From assembly GCF_016906535.1 (NCBI RefSeq), contig NC_057377.1, positions 496,001 to 560,000 on the forward strand: a stretch of DNA of 64,000 nucleotides. Reading direction: 5' to 3'. The stretch is from Rhizoctonia solani (lineage: Eukaryota > Basidiomycota > Agaricomycetes > Cantharellales > Ceratobasidiaceae). The position numbers and the translations under genes were made by a program. Numbering within the stretch: position 1 is the first letter of the stretch; every line of letters starts with the position of its first letter. This document shows, in pieces, positions 15,795 through 60,368 of the stretch. Below the pieces are notes generated by a model. That model was not told where the DNA came from. It did no database searches and worked only from the letters and a program-made list of their open reading frames with translations.

Positions 15795-18262
15795 ATGCAT
15801 GCCCTATTCTCTTATTTAGGCAAAGTCTTTCAATCAGAGCCCTCTGAGGAACCTTCCGGACCCACAACTTACAGTACGTTGCGTTGTAGTCGTGGAGCTT
15901 CCTACTTATTTCTTGCCAGAGGGACACAAGTATGGGGTTAACTCTGTTGCGTTTTCTCCTGATGGGTGTTCGGTTGTATCGGGATCCTTGGACAGGACAG
16001 TTTGTAGCTGGAATACGAACAAGTCTGCCTCGATAAGTCAACTGTGGCAAGCTGAGAGACATGGTGATACAGTTTATTCGGTCTCCTACTCCCCCCTTGG
16101 TGATGTATTAGCTTCTGGATCCGCCGACTTCACCATTCGCCTATGGGATTCAAAGACGGGCTTGCCAATAGGCGAGCCACTAAAGAGCCAAAGGAACATG
16201 GTACATTCAGTCGCCTTCTCTGGAGATGCAAAATTTATTGCCAGTGGCAATGAAGGAGGGGAGGTTCGTATGTGGGCCACGAATGACACAGCAAGTCCCT
16301 ACATCTCTTACGGGAGCAACTCATTCACGATTGCGTCGATCGCGTTCTCTCCCTGTGGTATTCGGGTCGCTGCCGGGTCTCATGACTGGGGTATCCGAGC
16401 CTATGATTTGCAAACTAAAACATCAATATTATCACTCCTCGGGGGACATACTGAACCCGTTCGTTCCATTGCATATTCTCACGACGGAAACCTGATAATC
16501 TCTGGGTCCAATGACAAATCGGTTCAGCTCTGGGACGTTCGTAGTGGAAAGATCGTCCGCAATTCATACCAAGGCCATGCCAACCAAGTTACATCCGTTG
16601 CTTTCTCTCCAAACGATTTATGGGTCGCGTCGGGATCTATGGATCGTACTGTTCGTATCTGGGACATACGGACTAGCGGTTTGATTGTTGAGCCATTGAA
16701 GGGGCATACCAGGGGGGTAACTTCGATCGCATTTTCTCCCAGTGGAGCCCAACTCCTAACTGGTTCACTCGATCGTAATGTAAAATTGTGGAATTTACTC
16801 CAAGTAGAACATTTTTGTGAACCTGAGACAGGATCGAGGTCGGAAGTAGGAGAAGGAAGTCAGCAACACACAACCGGGAGCACATCACCCAGGAGTTTTG
16901 AAGAGGGAGAAGTAACTAACAAAGAGTTAGTTAACCAGCAGATGGTAAAATATAATTTCTCGTGCCAAGCATAATCTAACATATTCCTTTTGTGCTTGAA
17001 GTCGATCCACGATATGTTCAATAGCCTTCTTACTCATGGATGCGTCGATCTCACTACCCAAATGATTGGGAAACACGATGACACCGTCCCGGTAGCTGGC
17101 GGTGGTTTTGGTGATGTATGGATGGGTGAATTACGCAACGGCAGTAAGGTGGCAATTAAAGCATGGAGAGCGTCTTTCATTGAGCCCTGCGGCTACAAAG
17201 TTCTCAAGGTGTGCGCATCCCATCACCTACTATTAAGACGTTGTCACTTACGACTGAACACTATCAGCGTGCCATGCGTGAAATATACAATTGGTCCAGA
17301 ATGAAACACGACAATATACACGAATTGATGGGGGTGATGATATTCAAGGGCAACTCCTTAGGGATGGTTTCCCAATGGATGGAAAATGGAAATTTGCACG
17401 ATTTCATGAGACACAACCCCAACTTCAAACCATTTTCATTGGCAAGCCAAGTCTCAGAGATCGCCGTATATTATTAGCTCATATCTTGTGCAGTCGATTC
17501 AAGTCGCAAGCGGCCTTGCGTATATGCACCAAAACGAAATGGTAAGGTGGGCTTTGGATGGAGTATGACTATATCTGAATGGAGTTTTGAAATAGGTTCA
17601 TGGCGATCTTAAAGCGGCAAGTGATTTGGATTGACCGTGATTGAGCAGCAGATTGCTAATATGCATGAATCTCAAAGTACAATGTTCTTGTGTCGTCAGA
17701 GGGTACTGCCAAACTGACCGACTTTGGCTTATCCGTCTTGTCTAATGCCAGCCTGGCGTTCTCGTACTCTAGTGACACACAATCAATATCCGTTCGCTGG
17801 ACGGTGAGTATCAACAACTTACATTTGCATTGCTATTTGTCAAGCATTCCTAGGCTCCAGAACTACTCTTGGAAGGCGCGATTAAGACCAAGGAATCGGA
17901 TGTGTATGCCCTTGGAATGGTATGTATTGTATTGTAGATAGCAAAGTTTCTGCTGAATCCATACATACGTTGTATCAGACACTCCTGGTAAGCCTTAGAT
18001 AGTATAAGAGCTTAATGAGCCAACTGAACATGAGTAGGAGATATACACAACAGATATACCATATGTACAATGTCGAAGGGACTTTCAAGTTTTGAGGAGG
18101 ATACAACAAGGGATTTTGCCTGAACGCCCACACAAATCTCTTATGAACAATGAAGAAGGAGATTTTGTATGGGAAGTATTGATAGCCTGCTGGGATCGTG
18201 ACCATAATACTAGACCCACCGCTAAGAGTGTATTTGAGTCTTTATCAGCAAGGTTGAACTAG
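15795..18262 (+). CDS. WD40-repeat / protein kinase fusion, gene 1
   Basis: Exon 1 (15795-15873) reads MHALFSYLGKVFQSEPSEEP and ends in a phase-1 intron immediately before the first GH. This matches the intron position in gene 3. About seven WD40 repeats follow (GHKYGVNSVAFSPDG ... VKLWN), then a Ser/Glu-rich linker. An intron after NQQM leads to the kinase. The kinase has the glycine loop GGGFGDVWMG, the lysine in VAIKAW, REIYNW (helix C Glu), HGDLKA, DFGLSVL, RWT-APELL and ESDVYALGM. Then come a 9-nt microexon TLL (17979-17987), EIYTTDIPYVQC and RPTAKSVFESL, with TAG at 18260-18262. All catalytic residues are present, so an active TKL-like kinase is expected. Two introns look GC-AG (17442-17493 and 17617-17677). 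Ligand and substrate are unknown. Confidence 0.82.
17979..17987 (+). other. 9-nt microexon in kinase of gene 1
   Basis: ACACTCCTG (Thr-Leu-Leu) between GTATCAG and GTAAGC, with introns of 59 and 50 nt on either side. Confidence 0.78.
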
Positions 18263-18813
18263 CAAAAAAGAACTCTTTGTATATATGGTTATGTCATTCT
18301 GGTTATTGAGGGCAATTTTTTCTCAATACATTTATGTAGTGGGAGTTGACAGGGGTTCAATAGGATATATAATAAGTAAGTTCAGATTTTTATTGACTAG
18401 TAGAAGATAATCAAGGCAGTAAGTTAGAGTGCTGAGTCAAAACCATATTGGTCTCAGGGTGTCCTAGACATAGTGTGGGACAAGTGTGGGGGTTCTGGCA
18501 CTTGAAGCCTTGTGTGTACAAGCAATGAGAAAACTGTGTAAGGTGTACTTAGCAACTATACAACAACAGAGAAGACACTTAATGTCCTAGACATTGTCTG
18601 GGACCAAGTGGGGATTTGGTGCTTGTGGCCAACTAAGTACAAGAGTAAGCCACATAAGGCAGCAGGGAACTATCTACAGCAACAAAACACCTAACTACAA
18701 CAAGCAAGCCACTTAAGGTGGCAGCAAGCTATCTAAGTGTCCTAGACTTGGTCTGAGACAACATGGGGGTTTGATGCTTGAGGCTGGGCAGTAGAAATGA
18801 GAGGTTGCTTAAG
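18263..18813. repeat. Repeat-derived AT-rich flank
   Basis: No gene is present. From about 18463 the sequence has repeated TGTCCTAGACxTxGTCTG-like phrases and CACTTAAGGxxGCA phrases, also found in the LTR-B family copies at 19139, 25605 and 32349. It is probably a degraded LTR-B relative into which LTR-A (18814-20152) inserted. Confidence 0.45.
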
Positions 18814-19138
18814 TGTTACACCCTTACAAATTATACCATTGGATTCACATGATTTTTCTCTTATTTTTAGTATTTTTTACAAACTCCTTATCTATTGTTC
18901 TTTGATCACATAATCTTGGCACTTATTATGCCAAGATGCTGCGCCAAGATGCCATGCCAAGGGTGCTTAGGAAGAATCCACATTTCTGCGCAGCCTGCAG
19001 CATGCTTCTTATTTCACATGTAGTCTTCTATTCACACATGCACAGACCACATGTATTTAGTTCTCTTTGTTATATAAACAGCAGGAAAATTGCTTGGAGA
19101 CCCCAAGTCAATTTTACCTTGTCTTTCATCACAGACAG

Positions 19139-19912
19139 TGTCCTAAATGTCTGTAAGGATGTCAAGGAGGGGGGTGCTTGCAGCCAGGCGTATACAAGTG
19201 AAAACTGCATAAGGCAGTGAGCAAGCTACCTACAACAACAACCAGCTATACTACAATGATGAGGCTGCTTAAGGCAGTGACAAACTATCTAAGTACAACA
19301 AGTGTCATAAACAGAGGAAAATAGAACTAGCTGGAATTGAACCAGCTTGACCACTAAGCCATAGAGCCCTATTATTCCTCTGCTGACAACCCATGATTAC
19401 ACCTGCTACCCCCCAAATTTGGGCTTGGGCCAGCATGCAACCACTTGTACTGGTCATGTGACTGTGTCCAGGACAACAAGGAACTGCTTAAGGCGGTATC
19501 AAGCTATCCAAGTACTAAGTGTTTACTGGCCCTAGTGGCCTTGTACAAATGGGGGATGCAACAAGAGGTAATCAACCTGGGTGTTACCATGGTTGGTTAG
19601 CCTCCTTATATATATTACAGAGGCACTAATTACAAATACAATATGTGTGGGAACAGAAGCTAACTATATGTAATAAGAACCCTGCTCTGCAGTTAGTCTC
19701 ACTCATGCATACGTGTCACTGACATGTCATAGTGATGTCATCAAGTGGAGGTGGCTACATATGTATGAGTAAGCACAGATGGGGATGTGGCTTGGCGCTT
19801 AGCGTATGATATAGGCGCCAGAGTCATGTGGTTGAAAATGTAGTCCAATTGTCTTTGTTTTAAAATCAAGAAAATAGGGATAAATTCCCTGATATCAAAT
19901 GTGTCTACAACA
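19139..19912 (-). mobile_element. LTR-B copy inserted in LTR-A
   Basis: On the plus strand it begins TGTCCTAAATG and ends GTGTCTACAACA. The 5-bp duplication GACAG flanks it (19134-19138 and 19913-19917). It carries the mini-element at 19303-19475. Removing that leaves about 596 bp, close to the other LTR-B copies. Internal landmarks shared with them are CCATGGTTGGTTxGCCTCC and GACATGTCATAxTGATGTCA. Confidence 0.75.
19303..19475 (-). mobile_element. 173-bp TG...CA mini-element with tRNA-like core (copy A)
   Basis: Its plus-strand ends are TGTCATAAACAG and GTCCAGGACA, and the 5-bp duplication ACAAG flanks it exactly (19298-19302 and 19476-19480). On its own sense strand it holds TGGCTTAGTGG (A-box-like) and GGTTCAATTCC (B-box-like). 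It is inserted within LTR-B. Other copies lie at 20175, 31790 and 44862, with a split or rearranged copy at 25565-26287. Confidence 0.75.
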
Positions 19913-20174
19913 GACAGGTACCTCAGTAGCTAAGTAGTCCCAGGCCCCCACAGGCCCCTTACTTGTTAACCACTCCAGTAGACCTACCACCCTCACTGGC
20001 CTAAGGCCCTTCCTCACCTCCAGTAGTTAGTTAGTCATTGCCTTACGCAACATAGATATAGTAGATAGCCTAGTTAGTAGTTTTGCCCTGTTTAGTACAG
20101 CCTTAAGTGCCCACCACTAGCAAGTGACCAACCATACAGTTGGGTCACAACATTAAGGCAACAAGAACCTAAAC

Positions 20175-20347
20175 TGTCCTGGACACGGTCACATGACCAG
20201 TACAAGTGGTTGCATGCTGGCCCAAGCCCAAATTTGGGGGGTAGCAGGTGTAATCATGGGTTGTCAGCAGAGGAATAATAGGGCTCTATGGCTTAGTGGT
20301 CAAGCTGGTTCAATTCCGGCTAGTTCTATTTTCCTCTGTTTATGACA
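20175..20347 (+). mobile_element. 173-bp mini-element (copy B) at the truncated 5' end of the chromovirus
   Basis: As read, the sequence appears identical to copy E at 44862-45034. It begins TGTCCTGGACA and ends TTTATGACA. Unlike copies A, D and E it lacks matching 5-bp flanks (left TAAAC, right TGAGC). The right flank is the middle of a gag reading frame. I infer that the two flanks were brought together by recombination or deletion after insertion. Confidence 0.7.
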
Positions 20348-21206
20348 TGAGCCCTACCTGGAAGAAGACGTTGTTAAAGGGAATCCTGTTTCTTGGCTCC
20401 ACAATCTGGATGCCTTCTGGCTGCAATTCAATGCACGCTGGAATGTCCAAAATAGGACAGAGAACTTCTGCGCTGAATTGCGCACCCTCAAACAAACCAA
20501 GGGAGTCCAAGATTACTACAAGGACTTCCAAACCTACTCTCAAGGTCTTGGTTACAATGATCTTTCTCTCAGGGACATGTTCTATGATGGCCTATCCCAC
20601 AAAATTAAGGAAACTCTCATGGTTCAAGATTATGACCATGCAGAGGCCTCTGTCACTCTTGCAACTCTTGCAGAGAAGGCCCTTAAGGTGGATCAACGCC
20701 TAGAGCAGTTTGCAGCCCAGCACAAGGGTTTATCCTCCTCTTCAAACCAATCTGGAAGCAAATCCAGCACCTGTACGTCAGCAGCAGCCCAGGGAGCGCC
20801 CAGGGATAAACTGTCTGTTGGGGAACAGGTGTATGCCATTGTGGATGGAAAGGCAAAGAAGGGGGTCCTTCAAAAAATTGGCCAGAATGCTAAAGGGATT
20901 GCAGTTCCAATTGTTAAGTGGAATGATGGCACCACCATGGACGTTACCTTCAAAACTATCAAGAAGGATAACCATCCAGCCACTGCCACCTCCACTCCTG
21001 CTCCCAAGGCTTCCTCCTCCTCCTCCTTGCGCAATTCTGGTCCTTCCCCTATGGACTTAGACTCTGCCTCTTCAAAAGGCAAAAAACCCATTATATGCGC
21101 AACATGTGGAGGTAGGGGACACTATGCCAATCAATGCCCCTCAAAATCCTACTCTGGCCATGAGGCCCATATCTCTGAGGATGAGTTGGAAAATGGGGAC
21201 CTCTGA
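20346..21206 (+). pseudogene. gag: 5'-truncated Ty3/gypsy gag
   Basis: The open frame continues from the end of mini-element copy B (YLEEDVVKGNPVSWL) through a retrotransposon gag core (FNARWNVQNRTENFCAELR, DYYKDFQTYSQGLGYNDLS). It then passes through a Ser/Pro-rich region to a CCHC zinc knuckle (CATCGGRGHYANQC) and stops at 21204-21206. The N-terminal part of gag, the primer-binding site and the 5' LTR are absent. Only the nucleocapsid half of the protein remains. Confidence 0.8.
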
Positions 21207-21256
21207 ACACTAATGGGAACAGTGTATCAGAGGGAAATAATGGACATTTAGATAGC

Positions 21257-24200
21257 TTGGAAATCTTTTCTGTAAATAATATATCTCCTTTAAATATATA
21301 TTTTCAAGCTTCTTGCATTCAACAAGTTCCCAACCCTAAGGTTACCAAGAAAATGAAGCCCTTCTTTGGATGGGCTATGATTGATTCAGGTGCTTCATCT
21401 TGCTTCATACACAAGGACCTGATCAAACAATATGGTATACCTACTACAAAAAAATCTGTACCATGTTGCCTTAAAGTGATTGATGGAAGAGACATTAGTT
21501 CTGGTTTGGTTGATTCAGAATGTATATTTACTTTAGAATTAGGTAGTCATAAAGAGGTTTTGAAATGTAACGTAGCTGATATAGGTAAACATAGCATAGT
21601 CCTTGGAATGTCCTGGCTCAAGTTACACAACCCTACTATAGATTGGCCTAATAAGCATATCACTTTTAATTCTCAATACTGTAACAATTCTTGTCTTTCT
21701 GTTTCTAATTCTATCCTGGGAAATGTTGGTGGGACTTCTAACCACCTTGAAGGCATACCAGAAGACTTAGGAGGTGTCAAGGTAATTGAACCTCTTGAAG
21801 GCATCCCTAGGGAAACTGGAGGTACTGTGGATTCTCCACTTGAAAGTATCCCAGTAGAACTGCGCAATTTTGCAGAGGTATTTTCTGAGGACATGAAGGT
21901 GACAGAACTGCCGCTGCACCGTCCTTTTGACTTAGGGATTGATTTAATTGATCCTGACAAACCTTTTAAGGCTATGGTATACCCCTTGAAGGCATCTGAT
22001 GATGAGGAACTTAGAAAACTCCTTAAAGAACAATTGGACAAAGGATTGATTCATCCATCCAAATCCAAATATGGTTCCCCAGTTCACTTTGTCAACAAGA
22101 AAAATGGGAAAAGGCGTATGGTTGTGGATTATAGATCCCTAAATGCAAATACAGTCAAAAATGCGTACCCTCTACCTCTAATACAGTCTCTCATTGAGAA
22201 ACTAAGGGGTGCAAAATACTTTTCCACCATTGACCTGAAATCTGGATACAACTTGGTCTGGATAAAGGAAGGTGATGAATGGAAGACTGCATTTAAAACC
22301 AAATATGGCCTGTTTGAATACCTAGTCATGCCCTTTGGGTTATGCAATGCTCCTGCTGCATTCCAGCACTTCATGAATGAGATATTTAGGGACATATTGG
22401 ACATCTATGTAGTAGTATATCTAGACAACATCCTAATATTCTCAGAAAGCAGAGAATTACATACAAAACATCTCCAAGAGGTATTGAAAAGGCTGCAAGA
22501 CAATGCATGCTATTGTAACCTGGAGAAGTGTAATTTCTATGCATCTGAAGTAGATTACCTTGGTGTTATTGCCAATGGTGAAGGAGTAAAAGCAGATCCT
22601 AAGAAAATTACTCAAGCAGTTGATTGGGCAACACCGCGCTCTGTCAAAGGGGTTCAAGAGTTTTTGGGCTTTATAAACTTCTATAGACGCTTCATACATA
22701 ACTTCTCAAAATTGGCACAACCCTTATACCAACTACTCCAAAAGAATATACCTTGGGAGTGGGGAAAACGCCAAGAAGTGTCTTTTAAGGCTCTTAAACA
22801 GGCTCTAATTGAGTCCCCTGTTTTAATCCAACCTGATCCATACAAGGAGTTTTTCCTTGAGTGTGACACCTCTGATTTTGCAACAGGCGCTGTCCTCAAT
22901 CAAAAGGGCAGTGATGATAAATTACACCCAGTTGCATTCCTATCAAAATCCCTAGCACCCGCTGAAAGAAACTATGACATCTTTGATAAAGAGTTACTAG
23001 CGGTAGTAAGGGCTTTAAAGGAATGGCGTCACCTGCTGGAAGGAACAGTAATCCCTGTCAAAATATTGACAGACCATAAAAATCTGGAGTATTTCCAGAC
23101 AAAAAGGGATCTGAACCAAAGGCAGTTAAGGTGGATGGGATTTTTGGCAGATTACAACTATAGGATTGTGTATAGGCTGGGCGCACAGAATAGAAAAGCA
23201 GATATTCTCTCTTGCCGTGAAGACCACAAGTCTGTGGTTAAAGGGGGGGGTGAAACCCCTGTGCTCATAAGCCCAGAGCCTTTTATTGCAGCTATTCAAA
23301 CAGATAGTGACCTTAATGATTTAATAAGGGACGCTCTGCATGATGGTAAAGCTGTACACAAAATCCTTAAATCCTTGGAAGAGGATATACCTGTTAAAGG
23401 ATGGAAGATTGATAATGGCCTACTTTACTATCATGATTGGATCTATGTCCCAAATGAGCCAGAAATCAGGAAAGCCATCTTAGAAAGCAGGCATGATAAC
23501 CCTTCCACTGGGCATCCAGGACATTTCAGAACCTTAGACCTCCTTTCAAGGGATTACTATTGGTCAGGGATGAAACAGTCTGTAACAAAATATGTCCAAG
23601 CATGCAATTCATGCATACGTAGCAAACACTCCAACCAGGCTCCTGAAGGTCTCCTTCAAAACATAGATTTACCCAATAAGCCCTGGGAGGAAATAACGTA
23701 TGACTTGATTGTAGGACTCCCCACCTCAGAAGGATATGATGCAATATTAACAGTAGTGGACCAATTATCCAAAATGGTTCATTTTATACCAACGCACTCT
23801 GATGCTACTGCTGTTGATGTTGCAAACCTCTTTGTATCCTTTGTGTGGAAGTTACATGGGTTACCCAGGAAAACCATTTTGGACCAAGGCCCCCAATTTA
23901 ATGCAAAATTCTTGAGACAAGTCTACAAGCGGTTGGGGATAGAACCACATTTCTCCACTGCATACAGACCACAAGTTGATGGACAAAGTGAATGCTTAAA
24001 CCAGTTTGTGGAAATTTACCTACACCACTACATCAACTATAGACAAACAGACTGGGTTGCATCACTACCACTTGCAGAATTTGCATACAATAATGGGAAA
24101 CACTCAGGCTCCAAACACTCTCCCTTCTACATGTGCTATGGTTATAATCCAGACTTCACAGTTGGAAACACCAAGGAAAGCCATGTCCCCCAAGCCAACA

Positions 24201-24748
24201 ACCTAGCAGACTTCCTGAAAGAGATCCAAACTGAAGCAAAAGCTGCTTTAGAAATTGCTGCAAGACAAAACGCGCAATACTATGATCTAAACAGAAGGGA
24301 AGCAACCAAGCTGGAAGTTGGTGATAAAGTTTATTTGAGTAGTGCCAACATCAAAACTTCAAGGCCTTCCCATAAGCTAGAGCATAAGCAATTGGGGCCC
24401 TATAAGGTCTTGGAGAAAATTGGCAGGAACTCCTATAAACTGGATCTCCCTAAATCCATGAAAGTCCATCCTGTTTTCAACATTGCCCTTTTACACAAAA
24501 AGCCAGTAGACAAATATGACTGTGGTCCAGTACCACTTCCCCCAGTTGTCACAGCTGATGGAGAAGAGGAATATACTGTTGAAAGGATCCTAGACTCCAA
24601 GAAAGTGGGTCAACAAGTCAAATACTTGGTCAAATGGAAAGGGTATGGACCAGAGGATAACACATGGGAACCCAAGGCCCACTTAGCCAATGCCCCTGAG
24701 AAATTGGCTAAGTTTCACCGTGAACATCCAGAGGCAGCTGGACCTTAA
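21257..24748 (+). CDS. pol: Ty3/gypsy chromovirus Pol polyprotein (PR-RT-RH-IN-chromodomain)
   Basis: A single open frame of 1163 codons lies in a different frame from gag. In order it contains the aspartic protease (AMIDSGASSCFIH) and reverse transcriptase (VDYRSLNANTVKNAYPLPL, DLKSGYNLVWI, MPFGLCNAPAAFQ). RNase H follows (ECDTSDFATGAVLNQ, LTDHKNLEYF), then integrase (HxxxH...C-C zinc region near HPGHFRTL...CNSCIRSK, DLIVGLPTSEGYDA, ILDQGPQFNAKF, GQSECLNQFVE). A C-terminal chromodomain closes it (YTVERILDSKK, YLVKWKGYGPEDNTWEP). The RT catalytic box reads YLDN at residues about 388-391 instead of YLDD, a GAC-to-AAC change at 22427-22429. The copy is therefore probably not self-mobile despite its intact frame. 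The first codon given is not ATG; the true start is uncertain. Confidence 0.92.
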   Translation: MEIFSVNNISPLNIYFQASCIQQVPNPKVTKKMKPFFGWAMIDSGASSCFIHKDLIKQYGIPTTKKSVPCCLKVIDGRDISSGLVDSECIFTLELGSHKEVLKCNVADIGKHSIVLGMSWLKLHNPTIDWPNKHITFNSQYCNNSCLSVSNSILGNVGGTSNHLEGIPEDLGGVKVIEPLEGIPRETGGTVDSPLESIPVELRNFAEVFSEDMKVTELPLHRPFDLGIDLIDPDKPFKAMVYPLKASDDEELRKLLKEQLDKGLIHPSKSKYGSPVHFVNKKNGKRRMVVDYRSLNANTVKNAYPLPLIQSLIEKLRGAKYFSTIDLKSGYNLVWIKEGDEWKTAFKTKYGLFEYLVMPFGLCNAPAAFQHFMNEIFRDILDIYVVVYLDNILIFSESRELHTKHLQEVLKRLQDNACYCNLEKCNFYASEVDYLGVIANGEGVKADPKKITQAVDWATPRSVKGVQEFLGFINFYRRFIHNFSKLAQPLYQLLQKNIPWEWGKRQEVSFKALKQALIESPVLIQPDPYKEFFLECDTSDFATGAVLNQKGSDDKLHPVAFLSKSLAPAERNYDIFDKELLAVVRALKEWRHLLEGTVIPVKILTDHKNLEYFQTKRDLNQRQLRWMGFLADYNYRIVYRLGAQNRKADILSCREDHKSVVKGGGETPVLISPEPFIAAIQTDSDLNDLIRDALHDGKAVHKILKSLEEDIPVKGWKIDNGLLYYHDWIYVPNEPEIRKAILESRHDNPSTGHPGHFRTLDLLSRDYYWSGMKQSVTKYVQACNSCIRSKHSNQAPEGLLQNIDLPNKPWEEITYDLIVGLPTSEGYDAILTVVDQLSKMVHFIPTHSDATAVDVANLFVSFVWKLHGLPRKTILDQGPQFNAKFLRQVYKRLGIEPHFSTAYRPQVDGQSECLNQFVEIYLHHYINYRQTDWVASLPLAEFAYNNGKHSGSKHSPFYMCYGYNPDFTVGNTKESHVPQANNLADFLKEIQTEAKAALEIAARQNAQYYDLNRREATKLEVGDKVYLSSANIKTSRPSHKLEHKQLGPYKVLEKIGRNSYKLDLPKSMKVHPVFNIALLHKKPVDKYDCGPVPLPPVVTADGEEEYTVERILDSKKVGQQVKYLVKWKGYGPEDNTWEPKAHLANAPEKLAKFHREHPEAAGP

Positions 24749-24759
24749 CAGGGGGGAAG

Positions 24760-27145: not shown

Positions 27146-28752
27146 CAGTTTGCCAAAAAACCTCTTACAGGAAATGAAATTTTGACTTGTAGCGCATGTA
27201 ACTTAGGAGCGGAGCGGCGGAAAAATCTAAATAAATAAGCAATAGATAGATATGGGTGCTAGCTACATATTGTGTGTTCATATAGCGCATTCGGTCCACA
27301 AATGGCAGAGATATGGGCAACATACAGTGGGGGGTACGTGTAAGAGGTTTCACGGCAGCAAATTGGATTACAAAGACATAGACATTTAATAAGGAATGGA
27401 CTTCCCCTTTCTCTCCAAAACCATAGCCATGCGTCTTGGCATAGTTTCAATTAGTTTCTGACAGTATTCTGGCGCAAATTCATCCCAAACCACCTGAACC
27501 CGCTCCCACAACTCAAGCATCCCATTAGGTACCTCCTTGTACTTGCCTAGGCGTTGTTTAAGCTCAGCCCATGAGTTTTCGATGGGATTAAGATTGGGAG
27601 AGTTTGCAGGCCACTCAAGGCACTTGACTTCATGGTTTTTGAGCCATTTGGTGGGCGCTTTTGCCTTGTGGGGGCGTGCATTATCATGCATATATATAAC
27701 CTCCCTTGCTTTCATCCCCAGGTGCTTCAGGCTCCTTGTGAATTTGTCCCCCAAAATCTCCTTGTAAACCTCCTTATTGAATGATCCTTCTACCTTGCAG
27801 CCATACCCAGTTCCTGGCCATCCCATACATCCCCAAAACATGAAGGAACCTCCACCGTGGCTGAGAGCCAGGGTGATCAGCCAATCACTAAGTTTCTCCC
27901 TGGGCCAGGCCCAGCCCCAATAGACTCCATTGGACCACAGGCAAGTAATTGTGGTCTTGTCTGACCATAGGACTTGTTTCCAATTGGCTACAGTCCAATC
28001 CTTGTGAGCTCTGGCAAATGCAATTTGGTCTTTGATATGTTTTGGGGTGAGCTTTGGTTTTTGTGTCTTCTTTACAGCTTGTAAACCAGCTTCTAACAAC
28101 GCATGGCAGACAGTGTCACAATGGATGGACTCCCCGCTAAGCGCGGACAGTGTTATAGCAGCCTTCCGTGTGCTGACTTTATTTCCGTTGGTTACAAGTC
28201 AGACAGCATAGCAAACGGCAGTGGGATTGAGCTTGCGTGGACAACCGCCTTTGGACCTTGCCAGGTGCAGGCGGTGTTTTCTAGTGACTTTTGTGATATA
28301 AGCGGACAAAACACCTGTTTTTTTGATGATTTGAGCATGTGTCTTGTCTGAGTCAAGTAAGGATAGTACCAAGTTAAGAGTGTCCTGAGAAAATGCTTTA
28401 GGCATTGTAGGTAGAGTATACTGGTTCCATTTGCGTATGTTAATGCTACATATATATAGCTGGTTCTGTGTGCAAAACATTGTCAAAGTATATCAAGTGA
28501 GTTTTGGGTACTGAAGGTTGCACTTGCAAAATCTGAAACGTGCTGTAAAACCTCTCACACGTACCCAATGATTTGTTTTATTTTTAGCCCTCTCATTTAC
28601 CAACATAACACGTTTCAAAGACATGTTTTCTGTAGCCAAAACGCTTTGCTATTCACCAGTATAATTGTTAGATTTTTATGCCGCTCTGCTCCCAAGTTAC
28701 ATGCGCTATAAGTCAAAATTTCATTCCCTGTAAGAGGTTTTTTGGCAAACTG
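27146..28752 (-). mobile_element. Tc1/mariner-type DNA transposon with TIRs
   Basis: The ends are CAGTTTGCCAAAAAACC on the left and its inverse GGTTTTTTGGCAAACTG on the right, each extended by about 70 bp of near-perfect inverted repeat (AGCGCATGTAACTTxGGAGC). TA flanks both ends (27144-27145 and 28753-28754). The 1607-bp length and the internal DDE transposase fit the Tc1/mariner superfamily. Confidence 0.88.
27386..28405 (-). pseudogene. Tc1/mariner transposase with one nonsense codon
   Basis: From MPKAFSQDTLNLVLSLLDSD the frame shows a helix-turn-helix region (HAQIIKKTGVLSAYITKV, GGCPRKLNPTAV). It then meets an in-frame TGA at 28199-28201, and continues in the same frame as LVTNGNKVSTRKAAITLS. 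The catalytic part is complete: WSDKTTI (first Asp), MHDNARPHKA (second Asp), NSPNLNPIENSWAELK (Glu). The stop sits where Arg is usual, consistent with a CGA-to-TGA change. This copy alone cannot make a full transposase. Confidence 0.85.
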
Positions 28753-28754
28753 TA

Positions 28755-30093: not shown

Positions 30094-30133
30094 CCACATA
30101 TAAGAGATTTATGGTCAACATGGCTGGACTTAG

Positions 30134-47538: not shown

Positions 47539-50051
47539 TTACGAATCCGACATTTCAGATATAATCTTGATCTATAAATGATAATTAAGTAGATCCCAGT
47601 AAGTTCCATAGACTATATAGCTATACAACTGACTTACCTTCTCTAATACTTTCATTGCAGCTGGTCGTGCTGATGGATTATAGTTCCAGCAATTTAGGAG
47701 TTGTTCCCATATCTGATTGCCATTGGGAGTATCTGGAAAATTGGCCATTAAGCGACTTGGAACTCTTCCATCCACAATCATGCCCATAACCTGCACATCA
47801 GTACATTCTGGGTATGGCACTTTGCCGGTGAAAATCTCCTGTTCTCCACCCAAATATAAGTTTATTTGTATTTGAGTCAACTATGTGATATACCAGAATT
47901 GTCTTTGTCGAGGTGATGAATTAGCATCCCAGCTAGAAAGAAAGACAATTTAAACTAGGCTTACCATTCCAAGCGCATATACATCTGACTCCTTGCTGGC
48001 GGGGGCATCATCCGCTTCCAGGCGTTCAGGTGCCTTGGGAAGGTGTGACCATCATTTATATATGTAAAATGTTAAGCATACCATCCATCGAGTTGAACCA
48101 GCCGCAGAGTCTTTGGTGTGTGAAAATGCTAAACTGCCCTCCGATGTAACCGACAAACCGAAGTCAGTGAGTTTGGCGCTACCCTCAGATGATACTAAAA
48201 CGTTTAGCTTTGAACTGGCTAATCAGTCACCCCATGGCTCAAACACAATCGAAGCCAGTGCTCACCGCCTTAAGATCTCCGTGTATCTGAAATGTATATA
48301 ATTTCGTGTCACATATAATTGGAATAAGTGCTTATTGATGGCCCACTTACCACATTCTCTTGATGCATATATGCTAGGCCTGAGACAACATGGATAGACT
48401 AAAAAGGAGCGCATTAGGCTCATTCTCATTGTACCACTCAACTAACCATCTTATATCGATCGAAACCAGGGTTCGCCCGAGAATACTCATGAATATTGCC
48501 GTTTTCCATCCATTCTGACACCATCCCCAAGTAGACATCCTTCAGCAAAATTATTCCCATTAATTTATGTATGTTCTCGTGGTTTAACAGCGACCAAACG
48601 TGAATCTCGCGAGTGGCGTGCTGAAATCCATGGTCGTTATGCATTAGTGCATTATGCAAGGATATTGTGAACAGCCCAAACCCACTCGTACCTTGAGGCT
48701 TTTATAATCACATTGCTCAACCATTCGGGCTCGCAAAGACTTTACTGCTACTTTGGTACCATCTTCCAATCTACCCATCCAAATGTCACCGAACCCTCCC
48801 CTAGACACCAGCTCCAGGCCTTTGTCAGTCTTCATTCTCGAAGTAAGGTCAACGCATCCGTGAGCCATTAGCCGGTCAAACATTTCTTGGATGGTCTGAG
48901 AATGTATGTACCTTAAATACGCTCACATGAGGGGAGTCACTTACCATGTGGCGACCAATTGTTACTGTATCATTTTCACTCCCACCCGGTTGGCTAGACT
49001 GATTTTTTGTATCTGAAATAGTTCGATATAAGGTTGGCGACGAACTCCCTACGACCTTCTCAACTGTGGCGTCACTTGCACTCCTTTGAGAAAGGATTCC
49101 AATAGTATTTGCAGAGTGGTCAAAGCCTGACTCTAGTCCACCGATGTTCTGAACCAAAATTGTACAATCGTATGACCCGGAGGCAATGCATTCACCCGAA
49201 GGAGACCAGGCAACGGAATTGACCAGGCCACCATGCATTTGAGGTAGGGTGATCAATGCGGCTTCTTGTCGTAAGTCCCATACACGTACGGATCTATCCC
49301 ATGACCCAGAAGCAACATAGTTTCCACTTGGGCAAAACGCAACAGATGCTACACAGTTGGTGTGGCCTTTGAATGGTCGAAGGACCATCTTCCCGCTACG
49401 AATATCCCAAATTTGTAAGAGTTTATTTGTAGATCCAGAAGCTAAGAGAGATCCTTCAGGAGAAAATTGAGTTGAGTAAATGGCCTTGTTACTTTCGTTA
49501 AACATCGCCAGTACATTTCGTCCCTGTTCAACGTCCCACAGACGTATCGTGCCATCAAGCGAGCCAGAAACTATAGTGTTATCATGATATGAAAAAGCCA
49601 CCGACTTTACCCAATCATGATGGCCTTTAAAAGGGGTAAATGAACGCTTCCCCCGCGTGTCCCAAAGCCGTAGAGTGTTGTCGCTGGACCCTGACACGAC
49701 AAGATTATTTCTCGGGGAGAATGCCACAGAGTTGATGGCTTTTTGGTGTCCTTCAAGTGGTTCTCCCACCAAATTTGGCAAACCAGCATCTATATTCCAG
49801 AGGCGAACTGTATGGTCAGCCGACCCAGAAGCAAGTATGTTGCCTAGAGGAGACACCGAGATAGAATAAATTTGGCCGGAGTGACCCCTCAATGGTTGTC
49901 CTTTTGACTGAGGACTTTTAGAATCCCATATTCGAATAGTTCTATCGTAAGAGCCGGATATCACCGATTTGCCATCAGGAGAAAACCCAACCGCACTAAC
50001 TTCCTCCTTGTGACCGTCTAATACTCGTTTAGCGCCCAGAATCTTTGACAA
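47539..50051 (-). CDS. WD40-repeat / protein kinase fusion, gene 2
   Basis: The WD40 part (LDGHKEEVSAVGFSPDG ... CTILVQNIG) carries about seven repeats with high mutual similarity (SVAFSPRNNLVVSGSSDNTL). A Ser/Thr-rich linker follows. An intron after TIGRHM joins TIQEMFDRLMAHGCVDL. The kinase has SRGGFGDIWMG, VAVKSL, REIHVW, SEWMENGNIHEYS, HGDLKAL-NVLVSS, DFGLSV and APERL...SKESDVYALGM. A 9-nt microexon TIL sits at 47894-47902, followed by EIFTGKVPYPEC and RPAAMKVLEK, and a last small exon ending ISEMSDS with TAA at 47539-47541. All catalytic residues are present, so it looks functional. The 5' end is not settled: no ATG precedes the first repeat in frame, and the frame stays open upstream (ILNNPAANSYLWFV) to about 50130. 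Confidence 0.8.
47894..47902 (-). other. 9-nt microexon in kinase of gene 2
   Basis: ACAATTCTG (Thr-Ile-Leu) is bounded by AAAG and GTATAT. Introns of 62 nt (47903-47964) and 55 nt (47839-47893) lie on either side. Without it YALGM would join EIFTG directly and the alpha-F helix would lose three residues. Confidence 0.75.
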
Positions 50052-50954
50052 GACCCAGCATACGAACCATAGATAACTATTGGCTGCTGGGTTGTTGAGG
50101 ATCCGCGAGAATACATTGTGTTGTAATCGGGTGAACAGATAGTAGTAGAGTATTTCTCGTCAATTGACACTTGTTCTATCTCCTGCCCGTTAACACGTGA
50201 TTCAAGATTGCTCACTCATCTGGATCCGATGATTGCCAGCGCGTAATCGAATATCTACAGTAACTCGCCACCAACGCGCAAGGACCTCGATTCTCATCAG
50301 CTTCACACTATTTGACTACAGTAAGGAAAAGCGAGACTTCTGTGCTCAAACTAGCACTAGTGTTTGGCTGATATACGCCAACCCAGTGCCGCGTCGACTG
50401 TATAAACCAGGTTGTGCCTTTGGTAATCTGCGACCGCAACACTCTTGTTAAAAGATTGTGACAGAATGCCTGACACCACAACTGGTTTTGCCGGGCTTAA
50501 AGCATACAGAGGTAGCCGCAATAGTATGCTCAACCTATGGTGAACTACTAGGAATCTAAAATGGATCGTTGTAGAACAGACCACATAGAGCCGTATGCTC
50601 GGGCACTTAGCTAGTGCAATCATTCGTGTTAGTGGTTTGAACCAAGGGGGATCTGTGGGTCGAGCGGTCTACAAAAACCACGCAAGCTTAAAGGAATCTG
50701 TCTGTGAAATAAGAGAGGGATTTCTTTTAGATTTAATTCACCAAGCGATATGAATACTATAACTAAGACACCACCAGGTGATGCTATCACACCTGTCGAA
50801 TCCCAGATGAGGCCAGGCAGACGTTAAATATCAACGTGTCCGATTTTTATTAAAGCATGGCTACAGTATCTTGAACGGTGTAAATACACGTATGAGAACA
50901 CGACCAAATATCCGCAACTCCCTTCCGAAACGAAATTAAACAGGATGAGTGGTT
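50052..50954. other. Intergenic / 5' region of gene 2
   Basis: A minus-strand frame 50018-50215 (begins at GTG) overlaps the start of gene 2 in another frame and is probably not a separate gene. An upstream exon of gene 2 may lie here. Nothing else was recognised. Confidence 0.35.
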
Positions 50955-54254: not shown

Positions 54255-55916
54255 TCAAAGTTCTTCATGAGCCTCCGTACGTGATTGGATCTTGTCGTCC
54301 AAATCGACAATCTTTCCCTCGGCACGTTTGGGTTTTTCTTTTTCGGGGGTAGTATAGTCGACCGAACCAACAGGTGGAAGTTTCTGAAGCCACGCGCGCA
54401 GGGCGGCGTTGAACTCTTCCGGTTTCTCGAGTTGCGGCCAGTGTGATGTTTGGAGCGACTAATAATAATAATGATGTAGTATTGCGGAGTTTAGAAATGG
54501 TTATTGGTCTGGCCCGATTGGGACAAAGGCAAAAGGAGGCTTACCACCGTTTCGAGTTGGGGGACGAATTTGGCCGAGCCAACGACTTCTGATACCTTGG
54601 CCCAGTCCGCCACCGTGTCCTATTACGCCAAATTAATGCACAAAGCTAGGATCGAGCGAATTTTTTACAACCTACCTCGGTGGGATTGATGAATAGCGCA
54701 GGCTGGGGGATCGTGTGGTTGCCCTGGTTATGCGCAAACTCCCAAGATCGGTATTTAGTACCATGGGTGTAGAACGATAAACCTGAGATGAAACCAGATT
54801 AATAATAGCCATATATGGACGATAAAGGGCGTACTGTTCTTGAATCCCTGGACCTTGTAGACTTTGACCAGGTAGTCTTCTTCGACCTTGCTAAAGAAAG
54901 GAATACGTTCCTCGAGCTTGTCTCCAGCTTCTTCGTACGCATCTAAAAAGCTATCCTGGCTCGTCAAGAATTTCGCCGGAGGTTTCGAGCCGGACGTGCG
55001 GTAAACCGAGCGGAGCGTTTTGCGAATATCCTTCTCCAGCTCCTCGTAGGCCTCCTTTGTCTTTTTTCCGAAATAAAGCTGATACGCGAGCTTAGGGAAA
55101 TACCCAAGGAGATTTTCCGTGGGGACAAATGGCCCATTCGCGGGGAGATACTATGAAACTCGTTAATTGACGATTCCCGTCTACGCAATCAATGTGCTCA
55201 CCGGAACCGAAGCACCAGCAACAGCTTCAAACAAATCCGGCCGTTGGCGGGCAGCTTCCCAACAGATAGCGGCGCCCCAATCGTGTCCGACACACACAGC
55301 CTTGGAGACATTTGCGGCTTGGAGAAGGCATACAAGGTCATCGACGTTATCTGGGATCGTGCCGGAGTTTTCGGGATCGCCAGTGTGGGATGACCAGCCG
55401 AAGCCTCGCAAATCGGGGACAAGCAAGTGATAGTCGTCCTGAATGTGCGCAGAGTGATGAGTGAGCGAAGGATGGGATGAAACGCAAGGGATCGGAGGGT
55501 GGCAATCAACTGACCCGGAATTCCTCGATTTGATTGGACCATGTCGACCAGAGGCCAGGCCATCCATGTACGAACAGAATAGTCCGCTTTGCTTCCGGAT
55601 TTAGATCTACCCATGCTAATTAACTCTATGAGCGGGCGCAGATAATGCCAATATGAAAAAAATAGGACGATCACGTACTGATGTCAAGCAAGTTCTCCAT
55701 CCAAGGGTCATAACTCCGATCCCACGCAAAGCACTGCATCTTACGTTTCCTGAATCGCTTGGGATTGAACGGCTCCCTTTCCCCAGTTTCGGAAATCCCG
55801 TCGTCGATATCGGGCTGTCCTGGCGCATTGATGATGACCTTTTCACCGGGTACTACATCTGCCAGTGCGCATGTCGCAGTCGCCGCAAGACCAGCGAGGA
55901 ACAAGAGTTTGGACAT
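54255..55916 (-). CDS. Secreted alpha/beta-hydrolase, epoxide hydrolase type
   Basis: The ATG at 55914-55916 begins a signal peptide (MSKLLFLAGLAATATCALAD). Then come KMQCFAWDRSYDPWMENLLD, the oxyanion region AKRTILFVHGWP, and HLLVPDLRGFGWSS. The nucleophile elbow is VGHDWGAAICWE (Asp). The cap has YFPKLAYQLYFGKKTKEAY. The segment HTIPQPALFINPTE is followed by the catalytic-His motif SLQTSHWPQLEKPEEFNAAL. A charged C-terminal extension ends EAHEEL with TGA at 54255-54257. At least seven short introns are inferred. The HGWP / GHDWGA / HWPQ set fits soluble epoxide hydrolases that open epoxides to diols; secretion is less usual and rests on the signal peptide. Substrate unknown. Confidence 0.8.
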
Positions 55917-57768
55917 GTCGAGCAGCGAACACGTAGAACGGTCAAAGCCAGGCGTGGACGTCAAATCAACTCGCCCGGGTCCTTCATAACGGGGCCGGCA
56001 ATCGTTCCTTCAGAGCGCTAGACGCCCAAATTAGGAAGTCGACATTACGCCATTCTTCTTCGACCTCGTGCACCACCCACTTCGACTTCTTCGCCAGGAA
56101 AGAACTGGACATATACGCATGTGTCCTTGAAGTACTGTCTAGTAAGATAAAGGCCTTGGCATATGGTGTCCACCTGCGCGGTTATGAAAGACCACGTAGT
56201 CCAATCAGGTGGCGGCATTGGTGGATGCTTTTGTCTGGTCGATATTGACGTCATATCTATCACCCCTTGCGACACACGTAGAAAAGGCTGCTCAGCATCA
56301 TAGGCGTCCTGAGTTCTGGATTTGACAATCTACTCGACTCTTTTCGGAGCCACGAGTTCGCTCAGTTGTCACAGCGAGCCCGACTGGCATGACCCCACCG
56401 TAATCCGCTTATCACTCTTTTTTTTTACTCCAGTGTTAAAGTAGAATTATAAATCATCATAAATAACAAAGAGACAAGAGATAGCCGTGGTTCACTGAGA
56501 AATCGACAACCCGGAGTCATGTGCTGCGCACGTCTCTATTCGTCACGACGAGGGCACGTGCTCGACCTTTTTTCTTTTTTCTTTTTTCTTTTTTCTTTTT
56601 TTTATTTATTTAAAAAAATACAATTTATTACACGGACCCAAGCACATGGTCAGACACCATGACTATGCTAGAGCGAGGCTACGTACACAACAAAAGAGAG
56701 AAAAGACATTGGCAAGGTAGAGGGAACACGCAGGGGCACGTGCTCGACCCGTCTTCCGAGAACCATACTATCCAACCTCGGCTTGTCGATCCTCACTGGA
56801 AAAAACCCGGGACCGGATACGATGGTAGGACGTTCAGGGCTTCTCGGTACACTCGTCACCCTGTAAGCCTTCACATGTAGATGAAACGCAAAAATGGCTA
56901 GGCTGCCGTCAGGGTTGATCGGTGGGTGGCAATACGCTTGGCTCATGACGGTCGAAGTGCATGATCATGAGCTTATTCTCTAGATGATTGCCCATGGACA
57001 TCTCTATAGATACGCCGACGCGAGCTAATTTCCACCAACTGGGGCGGAATCCGTCTTGTTTCCGGCGCATTTAATATATCATCAATGACTCGCGCATTTG
57101 CCCGTTGGTTCTTGATTGGCTCATTGCTCTTTAGTTCTTGATTGGCTGTTCGACTTTGTTAGCCACTCGAGCTAAAAAAAAAAAAAAAGGCTTCGGTAGT
57201 TTCCGTTCGTCCGAACTGAACTGACTTGTACCTCGGGAGCGGATGTTTGGCCATAGCGAATTCAACTTCCTTCCTAACAAGCCCACCACCCGGTAGGCGT
57301 GCTGCGTTCGACAGATAAAAGGAGCTCATGTCGACAGTCTATCTTTACACAAACGGGAGCTGCGAGTCAGTTTCATGGTAGTGATATCGGTGTAGGGAAA
57401 AAAAGGGAGAGAGGGAAGAGGGAATGCAATAGCCTTTTTGGGGTGAACCTAGCCACCAATGCATATGCTCCGATGGAATGGTGCGGTTAGATCGTCAACC
57501 AAGAAGCTCCCAGGATTGCCACCCTATTACTACTATGCGTGGATTTAAACTTGACATCTCGCACCGATAAAGTATTTCATCTGTATCCTACGATGAGTGG
57601 GCCCGTTGAATTGAACTCCGCTGGTAAATTATTGGACGCTTTGGCAGCCTATGAGATTTCAACCTACTCAGTCTTTGAATCCAAGCCAATTTTTGTCCGT
57701 CGTGACTCCGGTTTTCGGCTCGGGGCTGGCGGTTTAATATATCTAGTTCCACATGGCAGACACCCCTT
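55917..57768. other. Intergenic, no gene recognised
   Basis: A (TTTTTTC)n-like tract lies at 56567-56612. GGCACGTGCTCGACC occurs twice, near 56551 and 56737. Frames at 56045-56275 and 56659-56946 have no motif. Confidence 0.4.
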
Positions 57769-60368
57769 TCACTGGAAAGAACAAGGTTCACAGCGGAAAA
57801 TATTCGTGCATACATCTTCAGGCTGAGGTGTACAACCAACAAAGCGCGGTCCCACCCATGTCAAGCGAGCCTAAATAACATCTTCACTTGAGTGGAGCTT
57901 GTATCGACCGTAACTGTTTGAAGTTGTCCGAATAGCGAAAGTGAGTGTGAGCATCATCCATCGAGGAAATGTTGACCTTACAGTTTCAAGCACTTGCCGC
58001 GCTGACGGTCGGGCTCCAGGGTCCTTGTCCCAGCAGCTGAGAAGTAAGCTCCACATTCGATCTCCACGGCCATCGTCCTTGAGCTGGGCTGTTGGACGTG
58101 GGGGCTGCGTTCCTTCCATCACTTTGACAATCACCCGATACTCAGTTTGGCATTGCGGGTACGGTACTTCTCCAGTGATGACTTCCTACGTATATTTCAT
58201 GAGGTACGTAGATCATGTAGTCGTAGGTGAATCTTACAAGCATAGTCTATTTTGGAGGACTTGAGTACTAGCAACGTTGATACATTGAGCGACAGTAGCA
58301 CTTGATACGTACCATTCCCAACGCGTATATATCCGATTCTTTGCTTCTCTGTGCATCATCAAAGAGTAGTTCTGGTGCCTAGAAACAGTCGTATGAGCCT
58401 TGGGGAGAAGAAAACTAGCTTAACGAGCTCGATACATACAGCCCATCGCGTAGACCCAATTCGTGAGTTACTAGTATCCGAAAAGCCAAGGCTAGTTTCT
58501 GATATGGTCGATAGTCCAAAGTCTGCAAGTTTCGCTAGTCCATCAGAAGATATAAGAACGTTTAGCTATGAATGATATTAGTTATATCGAGCTCAATGCT
58601 ATACGAAGCACTCGCCGCTTTGAGATCACCATGTACCTGAATGCATTGTGTGCGTTCATTATTACTGTGTGAGCAAAGTCCAAGATTATAATGAACTGAC
58701 CGCGTCACATTCATGCATATATGCTAAACCTGATGCAATTGACCTACACTACCTAAAGGATAAGTAGTGGCTCGAAGCAATGCCTACTTAATCGAGCACA
58801 CGCACCATCTCATAGCGGTCAAGGGTAGGTTCCTTGCGCATATATTCATGAAGGTTTCCGTTTTCCATCCATTCAGAAACCATTCCTAGGTGCTGATCCC
58901 TGAAAATTATGACGCCCAGAAGCTGATGCACATGCTGATGTTTCATTCTCGACCAGTGATAAACCTCCCTCGTTGCGCGCTAGGGCCAATTCAAAAGGTG
59001 AAGTCTACCTTTGGGATCGAGCCCCGGGTTGTTAAATAAAACGTACCTTGAGGGCTTTGTCCTCACATTGCTCAATTGACGACCCTCGCCACACCTTGAT
59101 TGCTACTTTCCCTCCACTACGCAGCCTACTTGTCCAAATATCCCCGAATCCTCCCCCACCGATCATGACACTGGAATCTCGCCCAGATTCCATTTGCGAT
59201 GTCAGATCGATACAGCCGTGTTTTAACAAGAGATTAAATGTTTCTTCAATGGGCTATGCAAGTAGTAATAACTACGGGCCTAGAAAATAAGTATGCCGTA
59301 CTTACCGTATATCGACTGATTTCCCTCTTATTTTCCTTTGGAGATTCGTCGTGGTTCCTAACAGGAGTCTCATTTTCACGCTTTTCGTTCAAATCGTATT
59401 CGAATAGGTTCCAAACGATGACCTTGCCGTCATTCGAGCTAGACGCAATGTGTTTACCAGAGGGCGAGAATGCGACTGAATATACATAGCCATCGTGGCC
59501 TGTAATAGGATTCAAAACCAGTGCACCAGTTCTTATATCCCAGATGCGGATTGTTTGATCATAAGAACCAGAGGCCAAAAACAGGCCATGAGGAGAGAAA
59601 GCGACGGAGCAAACATGACCTGTGTGCCCTTAGTATGGCTTGGCAATCGTTTCTCCACTACGAGCGTCCCATAACCGAATAGTATTATCGCAGGAAGCAG
59701 ATGCAATATGTGAACCATCAGGAGAGTATGTGATTGATCGGATTGGGCCAGTATGACCGCGGAATGACCTCGCGTTTGCCACCCGTTCAATATCCCAGGC
59801 GCGAAGTGTTGTGTCGTCGGAGCCAGATATCACGTAGACACCATCTGGAGAGAATCCAACAGAGTTGACTCGACCATAATGCCCAGAAAATGAATTAGAA
59901 GATGTTCTGTTCTGTATATCCCATACTCGGACAAAGTTATCGTTGGAACCTGAGACGATAAATTTGCCGGAAGAGGAAAATGCAACTGCATTGATAGCAC
60001 CAGCATGGCCATGAAGCGGATCTCCCACTTGCTCTCCAGTATCCGTATCCCATAAACGAATACTTTGATCATGGGACCCAGAAACAATCAGGTCCCCAGC
60101 AGGAGAATAGGAAACGGAAGAAACACCACGAGTATGTCCCGTATATGGTTCACCCTTTGGGGCTGGACTAGAGGTATCCCAAATTCGTACCGTTCGGTCC
60201 ATGGAGCCGGAGGACACCGACTTCCCATCCGGAGAAAATGCAACAGCATAAACTGCATTGACGTGCCCGACTGGTGGCGATCGATTAGATATAACAAATA
60301 CCATATAGCCGAGACGTACCATGGGTAATTGGCGCAGCCAGGCGATCTGGGTCTTTCAGCCGAGACAT
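57769..60368 (-). pseudogene. WD40-repeat / protein kinase fusion, gene 3 (in-frame stop)
   Basis: Exon 1 is MSRLKDPDRLAAPITH, and a 49-nt phase-1 intron ends just before GHVNAVYAVAFSPDG. Seven WD40 repeats follow, but a TAA at 59630-59632 interrupts one (KPY-stop-GHTGHVCSVAFSP) with the same frame open on both sides. The linker ends EISRYT. The kinase has GGGGFGDIWTS, VAIKVW, REVYHW, SEWMENGNLHEYM, SGLAYMHECDA and VHGDLKA. A GC-AG intron (58566-58615) leads to LNVLISS and DFGLSTI, then APELLF...SDIYALGM. A 9-nt microexon TML (58238-58246), EVITGEVPYPQC and RPSARQVLET follow. The acceptor region near 58750 is altered relative to the sisters, although a GC-AG splice could keep frame. Kinase catalytic residues remain. 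The stop suggests a pseudogene, a truncated WD40-only product, or a sequence error. Confidence 0.75.
58238..58246 (-). other. 9-nt microexon in kinase of gene 3
   Basis: ACTATGCTT (Thr-Met-Leu) between AAAATAG and GTAAGA, at the same position as in genes 1 and 2. Confidence 0.75.

Follow-up and report, generated by a model that had tools for sequence, protein, structure and literature searches.

Self/non-self recognition in fungi has been studied mostly through receptors with NACHT and NB-ARC domains, largely in ascomycetes. A kinase and a WD40 domain share one chain in the bacterial PkwA, where the kinase is N-terminal and joined to WD40, and in LRRK2/ROCO proteins, where the WD40 domain is C-terminal and a Roc-COR GTPase and leucine-rich repeats (LRRs) are present. 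In the HNWD genes, repeat codons 7, 9, 25 and 27, which flank the conserved codons 8 and 26 at the propeller top, have been described as being under positive selection (PMC1805685), and FslK, fungi-specific kinases related to tyrosine kinases, as being expanded in Agaricomycetes, with additional domains in only 16 of 241 members (PMC3937382). Here we analyzed a window of 64,000 nucleotides of Rhizoctonia solani (C8:496001-560000 in a genome of 40.7 Mb and 16 contigs) holding three loci, hereafter genes 1 to 3, in which seven WD40 blades are followed by a kinase. They belong to a multi-copy family whose propellers keep a fixed blade register and are hypervariable at four top-face sites per blade, and whose kinases conserve their catalytic residues. 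We consider it fairly probable that the products are cytosolic recognition kinases, with a fixed WD40 scaffold, a diversifying sensing face and a kinase output.

Hypervariable sites on the top face of the propeller

In our 43-column blades, HNWD codons 7 and 9 correspond to columns 5 and 7, on either side of V6, and codons 25 and 27 to columns 23 and 25, on either side of D24; a wider HNWD list (10, 11, 12, 14, 30, 32, 39) had been set in advance and was replaced by the published four, which lie inside it. The comparison comprised 52 genes, namely 10 from our genome and 42 public homologues (P numbers; 45 minus three duplicating genes of our own), the latter kept if they had exactly seven blades, each with at least 28 aligned residues. 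Two copies with stops were included blade by blade, and C1_2380 (L046) was omitted from the pairwise WD40/kinase tests.

Across 297 gene pairs with a kinase identity of 0.65-0.95, the most variable of the 43 columns were 5, 23, 4, 25 and 7, and all seven blades were affected alike at the four sites. At a kinase identity of 75-80% (28 pairs), the four sites differed in 77% of cases, against 25% for the other WD40 positions and 23% for the kinase. When the divergence of the other WD40 positions was held at 0.20-0.25, the four-site difference was 0.82 in the family (48 of 1326 pairs) versus 0.16 in RACK1 (731 of 7260 pairs), and in the lowest bin 0.79 (7 pairs, 0.03-0.15) versus 0.05 (487 pairs, 0.05-0.15), where the RACK1 control consisted of yeast Asc1 and the best 120 of its 5285 matches, taken as RACK1 homologues by rank and names. 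Likewise, 26 disjoint closest pairs carried changes at 488 of 707 four-site positions and at 1693 of 6329 others, and in 23 of these pairs the four sites exceeded the rest. A difference in rate between whole domains was rejected as the signal: the WD40 part evolves only a little faster than the kinase (mean identities of 0.70 and 0.77 in 29 pairs of the 0.75-0.80 bin), and the signal resides in few columns.

The contrast was visible by eye among P0065, P0071 and P0081, whose propellers were otherwise 91-95% identical while 65-81% of the four-site residues were changed; between P0081 and P0071 (named strain 123E), 21 of 26 four-site residues differed as compared with 21 of 244 elsewhere (P=2e-15). 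Gene conversion restricted to the scaffold would hardly account for this pattern, because the 28 variable positions are distributed over the entire propeller. The same hypervariability was observed in five WD40 arrays adjoining NACHT matches in this genome, where the closest pair differed at 21 of 43 four-site residues versus 74 of 377 others, and the four sites were higher in 10 of 10 pairs. As a separate observation, P0071 and P0065 share a WD40 scaffold that is 95% identical while their kinases are 76% identical, a possible case of sensor-kinase recombination or of model errors.

A fixed blade register

The initial annotation had claimed highly similar internal repeats and, by analogy with HNWD genes, rapid repeat turnover, neither of which was borne out. 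Mean blade-to-blade identity was only 35-43% in the three window genes and 35-49% within the 11 fusion copies of the genome, with a highest pair of 63%; high internal repeat conservation has been defined as more than 85% identity over 100 residues (PMC4986451). Tandem Repeats Finder (TRF) detected no tandem array over the WD40 parts of the three window genes.

Of the 315 blades in the 45 listed proteins whose seven blades are all complete, 303 were most similar to the same-position blade in a different gene, 12 to a blade at some other position in a different gene, and none to a blade of their own gene. In the genome's 11 fusion copies (76 blades) the corresponding numbers were 52, 22 and 2. 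Seven blades were detected in 10 of these 11 copies and eight in one, a comparison made between paralogues; where a listed protein has fewer blades, its gene model may be truncated. Near-identical repeats maintained by concerted evolution were rejected on the low blade identity, the missing TRF array and the fixed register. Because blades best match the same position in other genes, the propeller is, on this sequence comparison, an old and fixed seven-bladed unit.

Gene models of the three loci

The features of the three genes are as follows.

15795..18262, plus strand: gene 1, intact WD40-kinase gene, 659 residues, 10 exons (splice model, single open frame; Pfam WD40 and PK_Tyr_Ser-Thr)
15795-15873, 15920-16944, 17002-17208, 17268-17441, 17494-17541, plus strand: gene 1, exons 1-5 (splice model)
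17596-17616, 17678-17803, 17854-17919, 17979-17987, 18038-18262, plus strand: gene 1, exons 6-10 (splice model)
15922..16827, plus strand: gene 1, seven-bladed WD40 region, blades 3 and 4 low-scoring (our WD40 profile, 7 matches)
17002..18262, plus strand: gene 1, kinase module with HGC motif, VAIK, HGDLK, DFG and APE, beginning at a phase-0 intron acceptor (splice model, Pfam, profiles)
47539..50116, minus strand: gene 2, intact WD40-kinase gene, 668 residues (exon model and public protein P0084)
49128..50015, minus strand: gene 2, seven WD40 blades (our profile; AlphaFold confident at about residues 13-310)
47539..48895, minus strand: gene 2, kinase module (exon model, Pfam, profiles, AlphaFold)
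57884..60368, minus strand: gene 3, stop-interrupted WD40-kinase copy (3' end at about 57884 by homology, by eye)
59378..60268, minus strand: gene 3, seven WD40 blades (our profile)
57982..59253, minus strand: gene 3, kinase exon groups, whole (profile matches)
59047-59253, 58806-58979, 58440-58565, 57982-58185, minus strand: gene 3, N-lobe, alphaC, DFG and C-lobe groups, respectively (profile matches)
59630..59632, minus strand: gene 3, in-frame TAA between blades 5 and 6 (six-frame translation; one TAA also inside the genome-search matches)

The fusion architecture proposed in the initial annotation was recovered at all three loci, the profiles placing seven WD40 blades before the N-lobe, alphaC, DFG and C-lobe kinase exon groups, and Pfam agreed for the two intact proteins (WD40 and PK_Tyr_Ser-Thr, with kinase E values of 1.8e-45 and 6.2e-45). 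The extent of gene 1 held as annotated, while the start of gene 2 was moved from 50051 to about 50116: residues 18-668 of P0084, named 'Tyrosine kinase family catalytic domain protein', equal the gene 2 exon model, and residues 1-17 can be assigned by eye to a short first exon at 50068-50116. Three genes had been annotated, and genes 1 and 2 are intact; gene 3 carries an in-frame TAA in its WD40 part and is therefore probably dead, that is, probably a pseudogene as the sequence stands. Its splice site near 58750 is also doubtful (by eye), and a GC donor could rescue it.

In genes 1 and 2 a small first exon encodes the N-terminus, and one large exon the seven blades and the linker, while the kinase is divided among eight exons in gene 1 and nine in gene 2; gene 3 has the same layout. 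The intron phases are common to the genes, phase 1 for the first intron (that of gene 2 read by eye) and phase 0 for the rest, as expected from the annotated duplication of paralogues, although the family is an old one: the three kinases are only 51-54% identical to one another, which ruled out a recent local triplication. The close kinship assumed for the three genes accordingly failed, the gene 3 kinase being 76% identical to those of P0069 and P0107, its nearest relatives among the best 120 of 503 homologues, in both of which the seven blades and kinase groups stand in line. Unassigned protein amounts to about 17-26 N-terminal residues and a linker of 32-65 residues (by eye from the exon models), too short for a NACHT domain of about 170 residues, and NACHT was not among the best 25 of 46 and 25 of 52 Pfam matches of the two intact proteins, all of which were WD40/propeller or kinase families. 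The fusion had thus rightly been described as lacking NACHT.

Two introns of gene 1 are of the GC-AG type (GC donors at 17442-17447 and 17617-17622, plus strand); gene 3 appears (by eye) to have a GC donor at the site of the second, where gene 2 has GT.

The kinase domain and the predicted structure

In 56 aligned family members, the beta3 Lys (56/56), alphaC Glu (54/56), catalytic Asp (52/56, with 3 gaps), Asn (55/56), DFG Asp (56/56) and APE Glu (56/56) were almost invariably conserved. The HRD arginine is replaced by glycine in 52 of the 56, giving a 'non-RD' loop; such loops are linked with plant immune kinases. The nearest solved kinases by sequence (best 60 of 953) were mostly of the tyrosine kinase (TK) and tyrosine kinase-like (TKL) groups, such as EGFR, CSK, LCK and B-Raf. 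Judging from its conserved fold and catalytic residues, the kinase is catalytically equipped and TK/TKL-like.

An AlphaFold model of gene 2 (mean predicted local distance difference test score, pLDDT, 82.6; predicted template modelling score, pTM, 0.53) was confident for propeller and kinase and not reliable for the packing of the domains, and pLDDT fell below 50 in the linker (residues 314-367) and the activation loop (543-559). The best match in the PDB library was a WD40 domain from Thermomonospora (5YZV, 40% identity), whose parent protein we take to be the kinase-WD40 protein PkwA.

Family size, homologues and kinase tree

A search of the genome with the N-lobe exon of gene 1 returned 42 matches, and WD40 blades were found within 1.5 kb at 11 of the 30 loci returned from them, so that at least 11 fusion genes exist. 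Three of them are those of the window, a tandem of three lies at C8:0.70 Mb and a pair at C6:2.26 Mb, and C4, C1 and C10 hold one each. Two of the 12 further kinase-exon matches, L051 and L055, lie in regions that were analyzed and hold no WD40. The family is thus not a single-copy housekeeping gene. Versions of the HGCxDLT motif, which the initial annotation had placed at the opening of the kinase part, also occur in WD40-less kinases of the genome, and the motif was therefore rejected as a signature of the fusion.

Among the best 120 of 503 homologous public proteins, 84 carry WD40 and kinase and 36 a kinase without WD40, and the organism visible in 119 of the 120 was Rhizoctonia solani or Ceratobasidium (the name of P0044 being incomplete); the family is so far known from these two genera. 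A search with the WD40 part of gene 2 (best 120 of 7250) was swamped by long bacterial and fungal WD40 proteins. Other modules on family kinases include C2H2 (P0034 and P0037; P0089 and P0113 by precomputed domains), TPR behind the kinase (P0031), DIL behind the kinase (P0038) and SH3 (P0013, P0015, P0017 and P0056), variants that rest on gene models, some of which may merge neighbouring genes. Two or three kinase sets were present in 24 of the 36 WD40-less homologues (P0007-P0010, P0013, P0015-P0017 and others), an arrangement resembling that of the tandem-kinase immune proteins of plants.

In a quick maximum-likelihood tree built from 159 kinase rows, with support from the Shimodaira-Hasegawa-like approximate likelihood ratio test and no bootstrap, 95 of the 96 WD40-bearing rows fell inside a single group of 109 (support 98). 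On this tree 8 changes of the WD40 label are required, 5 of them forced by well-supported branches, as compared with a shuffled mean of 49.6. The remaining WD40-bearing row, L046 (C1_2380, at C1:2.38 Mb), fell outside the main group among WD40-less kinases, a position that suggests a second WD40-kinase join, on a long branch and with a kinase that looks degenerate (NFN for DFG). Within the main group, the WD40-less P0019, P0034, P0037, P0112 and P0113 stand beside the WD40-bearing P0041 (support 99), and the N-terminal module has therefore been exchanged or lost. Of 24 kinase rows, WD40-bearing and WD40-less alike, 22 have an AG directly at the kinase-module boundary, the phase-0 intron (counted by eye, one locus being entered twice), and such a phase-0 intron at the start of the kinase module would favour module exchange.

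Besides gene 3, one genome copy is interrupted, C8_701, which has an in-frame TAG in blade 2 (L040 1384-2283); P0096, which is close to it, starts from another frame and skips the TAG. Gain and loss of copies are nothing unusual in a family of this kind.

Proposed mechanism and alternative explanations

If the proteins are recognition kinases, a rigid seven-bladed propeller would present a top face varied from paralogue to paralogue, its variable residues lying, in each of the seven blades, on either side of the conserved V in GHxxxVxS and of the conserved D in SGSxDxT. This face may bind a protein ligand, possibly a non-self molecule or a guarded host protein, and binding would control the conserved TK/TKL-like kinase, which would be joined through the flexible 32-65 residue linker and relay the signal. 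The propeller would act as the WD40 sensor does in the NACHT receptors of fungi, except that a kinase takes the place of the switch of the signal transduction ATPases with numerous domains (STAND). Diversification would proceed through duplicated genes that acquire point changes while the scaffold stays fixed, without shuffling of near-identical repeats. Of the recognition role that had been suggested for these genes, a recognition-type variation pattern at the HNWD residues was indeed found, while ligand and output are what we infer.

Codon-level tests covered 28 pairs of eight intact genes of the genome (C8_701, gene 3 and C1_2380 being omitted), and only the C6 pair was unsaturated at silent sites, the proportion of synonymous differences (pS) in the WD40 part being 0.63-0.80 in the other 27. 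For four close pairs, a scaled neutral expectation of 0.22-0.42, which borrows its synonymous divergence (dS) from the C6 pair, was exceeded by the 0.65-0.82 seen (P 2e-3 to 3e-6), and three of the four pairs stayed below 0.05 when the assumed dS was doubled. Diversifying selection at the four sites is likely on these grounds but not proven, and a ratio of nonsynonymous to synonymous divergence (dN/dS) above 1 was not demonstrated.

Several observations weigh against a recognition role. The proportion of nonsynonymous differences (pN) in the unsaturated pair C6_2261/C6_2268 (dS about 0.5) was 0.16 at the four sites and 0.14 elsewhere; the excess at HNWD residues evident at the protein level was therefore not seen in the only DNA pair suited to it. 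Five of 33 pairs with a kinase identity of at least 0.75 also showed no significant four-site excess (P0028/P0035, 2/28; P0107/P0069, 5/28; gene 3/P0069, 6/28; gene 3/P0107, 8/28; the C6 tandem pair, 10/28), which we interpret as conserved specificities, and among the disjoint pairs the four sites were not raised in C4_3342/P0116 (0.25 vs. 0.33) and only slightly in C8_705/P0044 (0.39 vs. 0.28). The RACK1 control consists mostly of single-copy orthologues and not of a paralogous non-recognition WD40 family, and a single R. solani-yeast RACK1 pair (13/28 vs. 79/197), in which the two kinds of site do not clearly differ, contrasted less strongly with the family than the 120-protein control did. 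Furthermore, DFD stands in place of DFG in 27 of the 56 aligned kinases.

The main rival, possible though rather unlikely in our judgment, is substrate docking, in which the propellers would bind different endogenous substrates or adaptors and the paralogues would have sub-functionalized with no non-self recognition. Many known proteins use a WD40 face for substrate docking, kinases related to this one occur with further modules (C2H2 and SH3, or, behind the kinase, TPR and DIL), and the four sites are conserved in several orthologue-like pairs and different between most paralogues, all of which docking would accommodate. Stable substrates would, however, favour conservation, and the turnover was extreme, with 318 of 343 four-residue sets differing; moreover, all seven blades are affected alike, and the pattern matches that of the five NACHT-WD40 genes of the genome.

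Relaxed constraint, by which a functionless top face would drift while folding preserves the scaffold, is improbable. In the 28 pairs of 75-80% kinase identity, columns taken as other exposed loops differed in only 40% of cases where the four sites differed in 77%, the four close pairs exceeded the scaled neutral expectation, and some pairs conserve the four sites. In favour of relaxed constraint are the stops in the WD40 part of two of the 11 fusion genes (gene 3 and C8_701), together with a four-site pN of 0.59-0.80 in distant pairs of the genome, within the range of pS. That near-identical repeats are exchanged within and between genes in concerted evolution, as in HNWD-type receptors, is very improbable despite the same four hypervariable positions, given the low within-gene identity, the position-specific best matches, the seven blades of nearly all genome copies and the lack of a tandem array in the window genes described above.

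Neighbouring elements

Between genes 1 and 2 lies a Gypsy-type long terminal repeat (LTR) retrotransposon with a chromodomain and open gag and pol frames (20346-24748, plus strand). The window also holds a Tc1/mariner-like transposase frame (27386-28198, minus strand; HTH_Tnp_Tc3_2 and DDE_3), and a frame for an UNC-45-type myosin chaperone (61046-63223, plus strand) adjoins gene 3. Elsewhere in the genome, contigs C11 and C13 each carry RACK1, NACHT and WD40 array matches with equal scores in opposite orientation; the coordinates of these mirrored matches sum to about 2.091 Mb, and C11 and C13 therefore have the appearance of a homologous or haplotype pair.

Comparison with known systems

No title or abstract on a fungal WD40-TKL fusion was found among the papers listed in literature searches, which is weak evidence of absence. 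What appears new here is WD40 sensing in the style of the NOD-like receptors (NLRs) placed on a kinase without a nucleotide-binding oligomerization domain (NOD). If this role is true, the WD40 sensor would be a portable recognition module, like the LRRs of plant NLRs and receptor kinases, and the family a second, kinase-coupled receptor class with the same hypervariable sensing face.

PkwA of Thermomonospora is likewise a seven-bladed WD40 protein but bacterial, and to our knowledge no hypervariable face has been described for it. For a Roc-COR GTPase as in LRRK2 there is no room in the protein, and no such family was among the Pfam matches listed; LRRs are likewise absent. R. solani is described as subdivided by hyphal fusion compatibility groups (PMC12774589), and the family is therefore a concrete candidate gene set. 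Tentatively, its members could be NOD-free intracellular receptor kinases of Rhizoctonia and Ceratobasidium, built on a phase-0-bounded module able to take other sensors and joined to WD40 probably twice, with a repertoire that could set anastomosis compatibility or resistance to mycoviruses or bacteria.

The kinase resembles FslK in the features described for that group, being a TK-like kinase of an Agaricomycete that has the kinase subdomains but lacks AARN, the sequence here being DLKAxN (PMC3937382). With the HNWD/NWD proteins of Podospora anserina (het-d, het-e, het-r), the family shares a WD40 sensor hypervariable at positions 7, 9, 25 and 27 (PMC1805685), whereas it has neither NACHT nor HET, bears the WD40 domain at the N-terminus with a kinase as output, and keeps seven blades in fixed register without internal repeat similarity. 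The NACHT-WD40 NLRs of the same genome, in which 85 NACHT matches were found, are alike in WD40 style and in four-site hypervariability (five arrays), but they have NACHT in place of the kinase, and 10-14 blades were detected in the five stretches.

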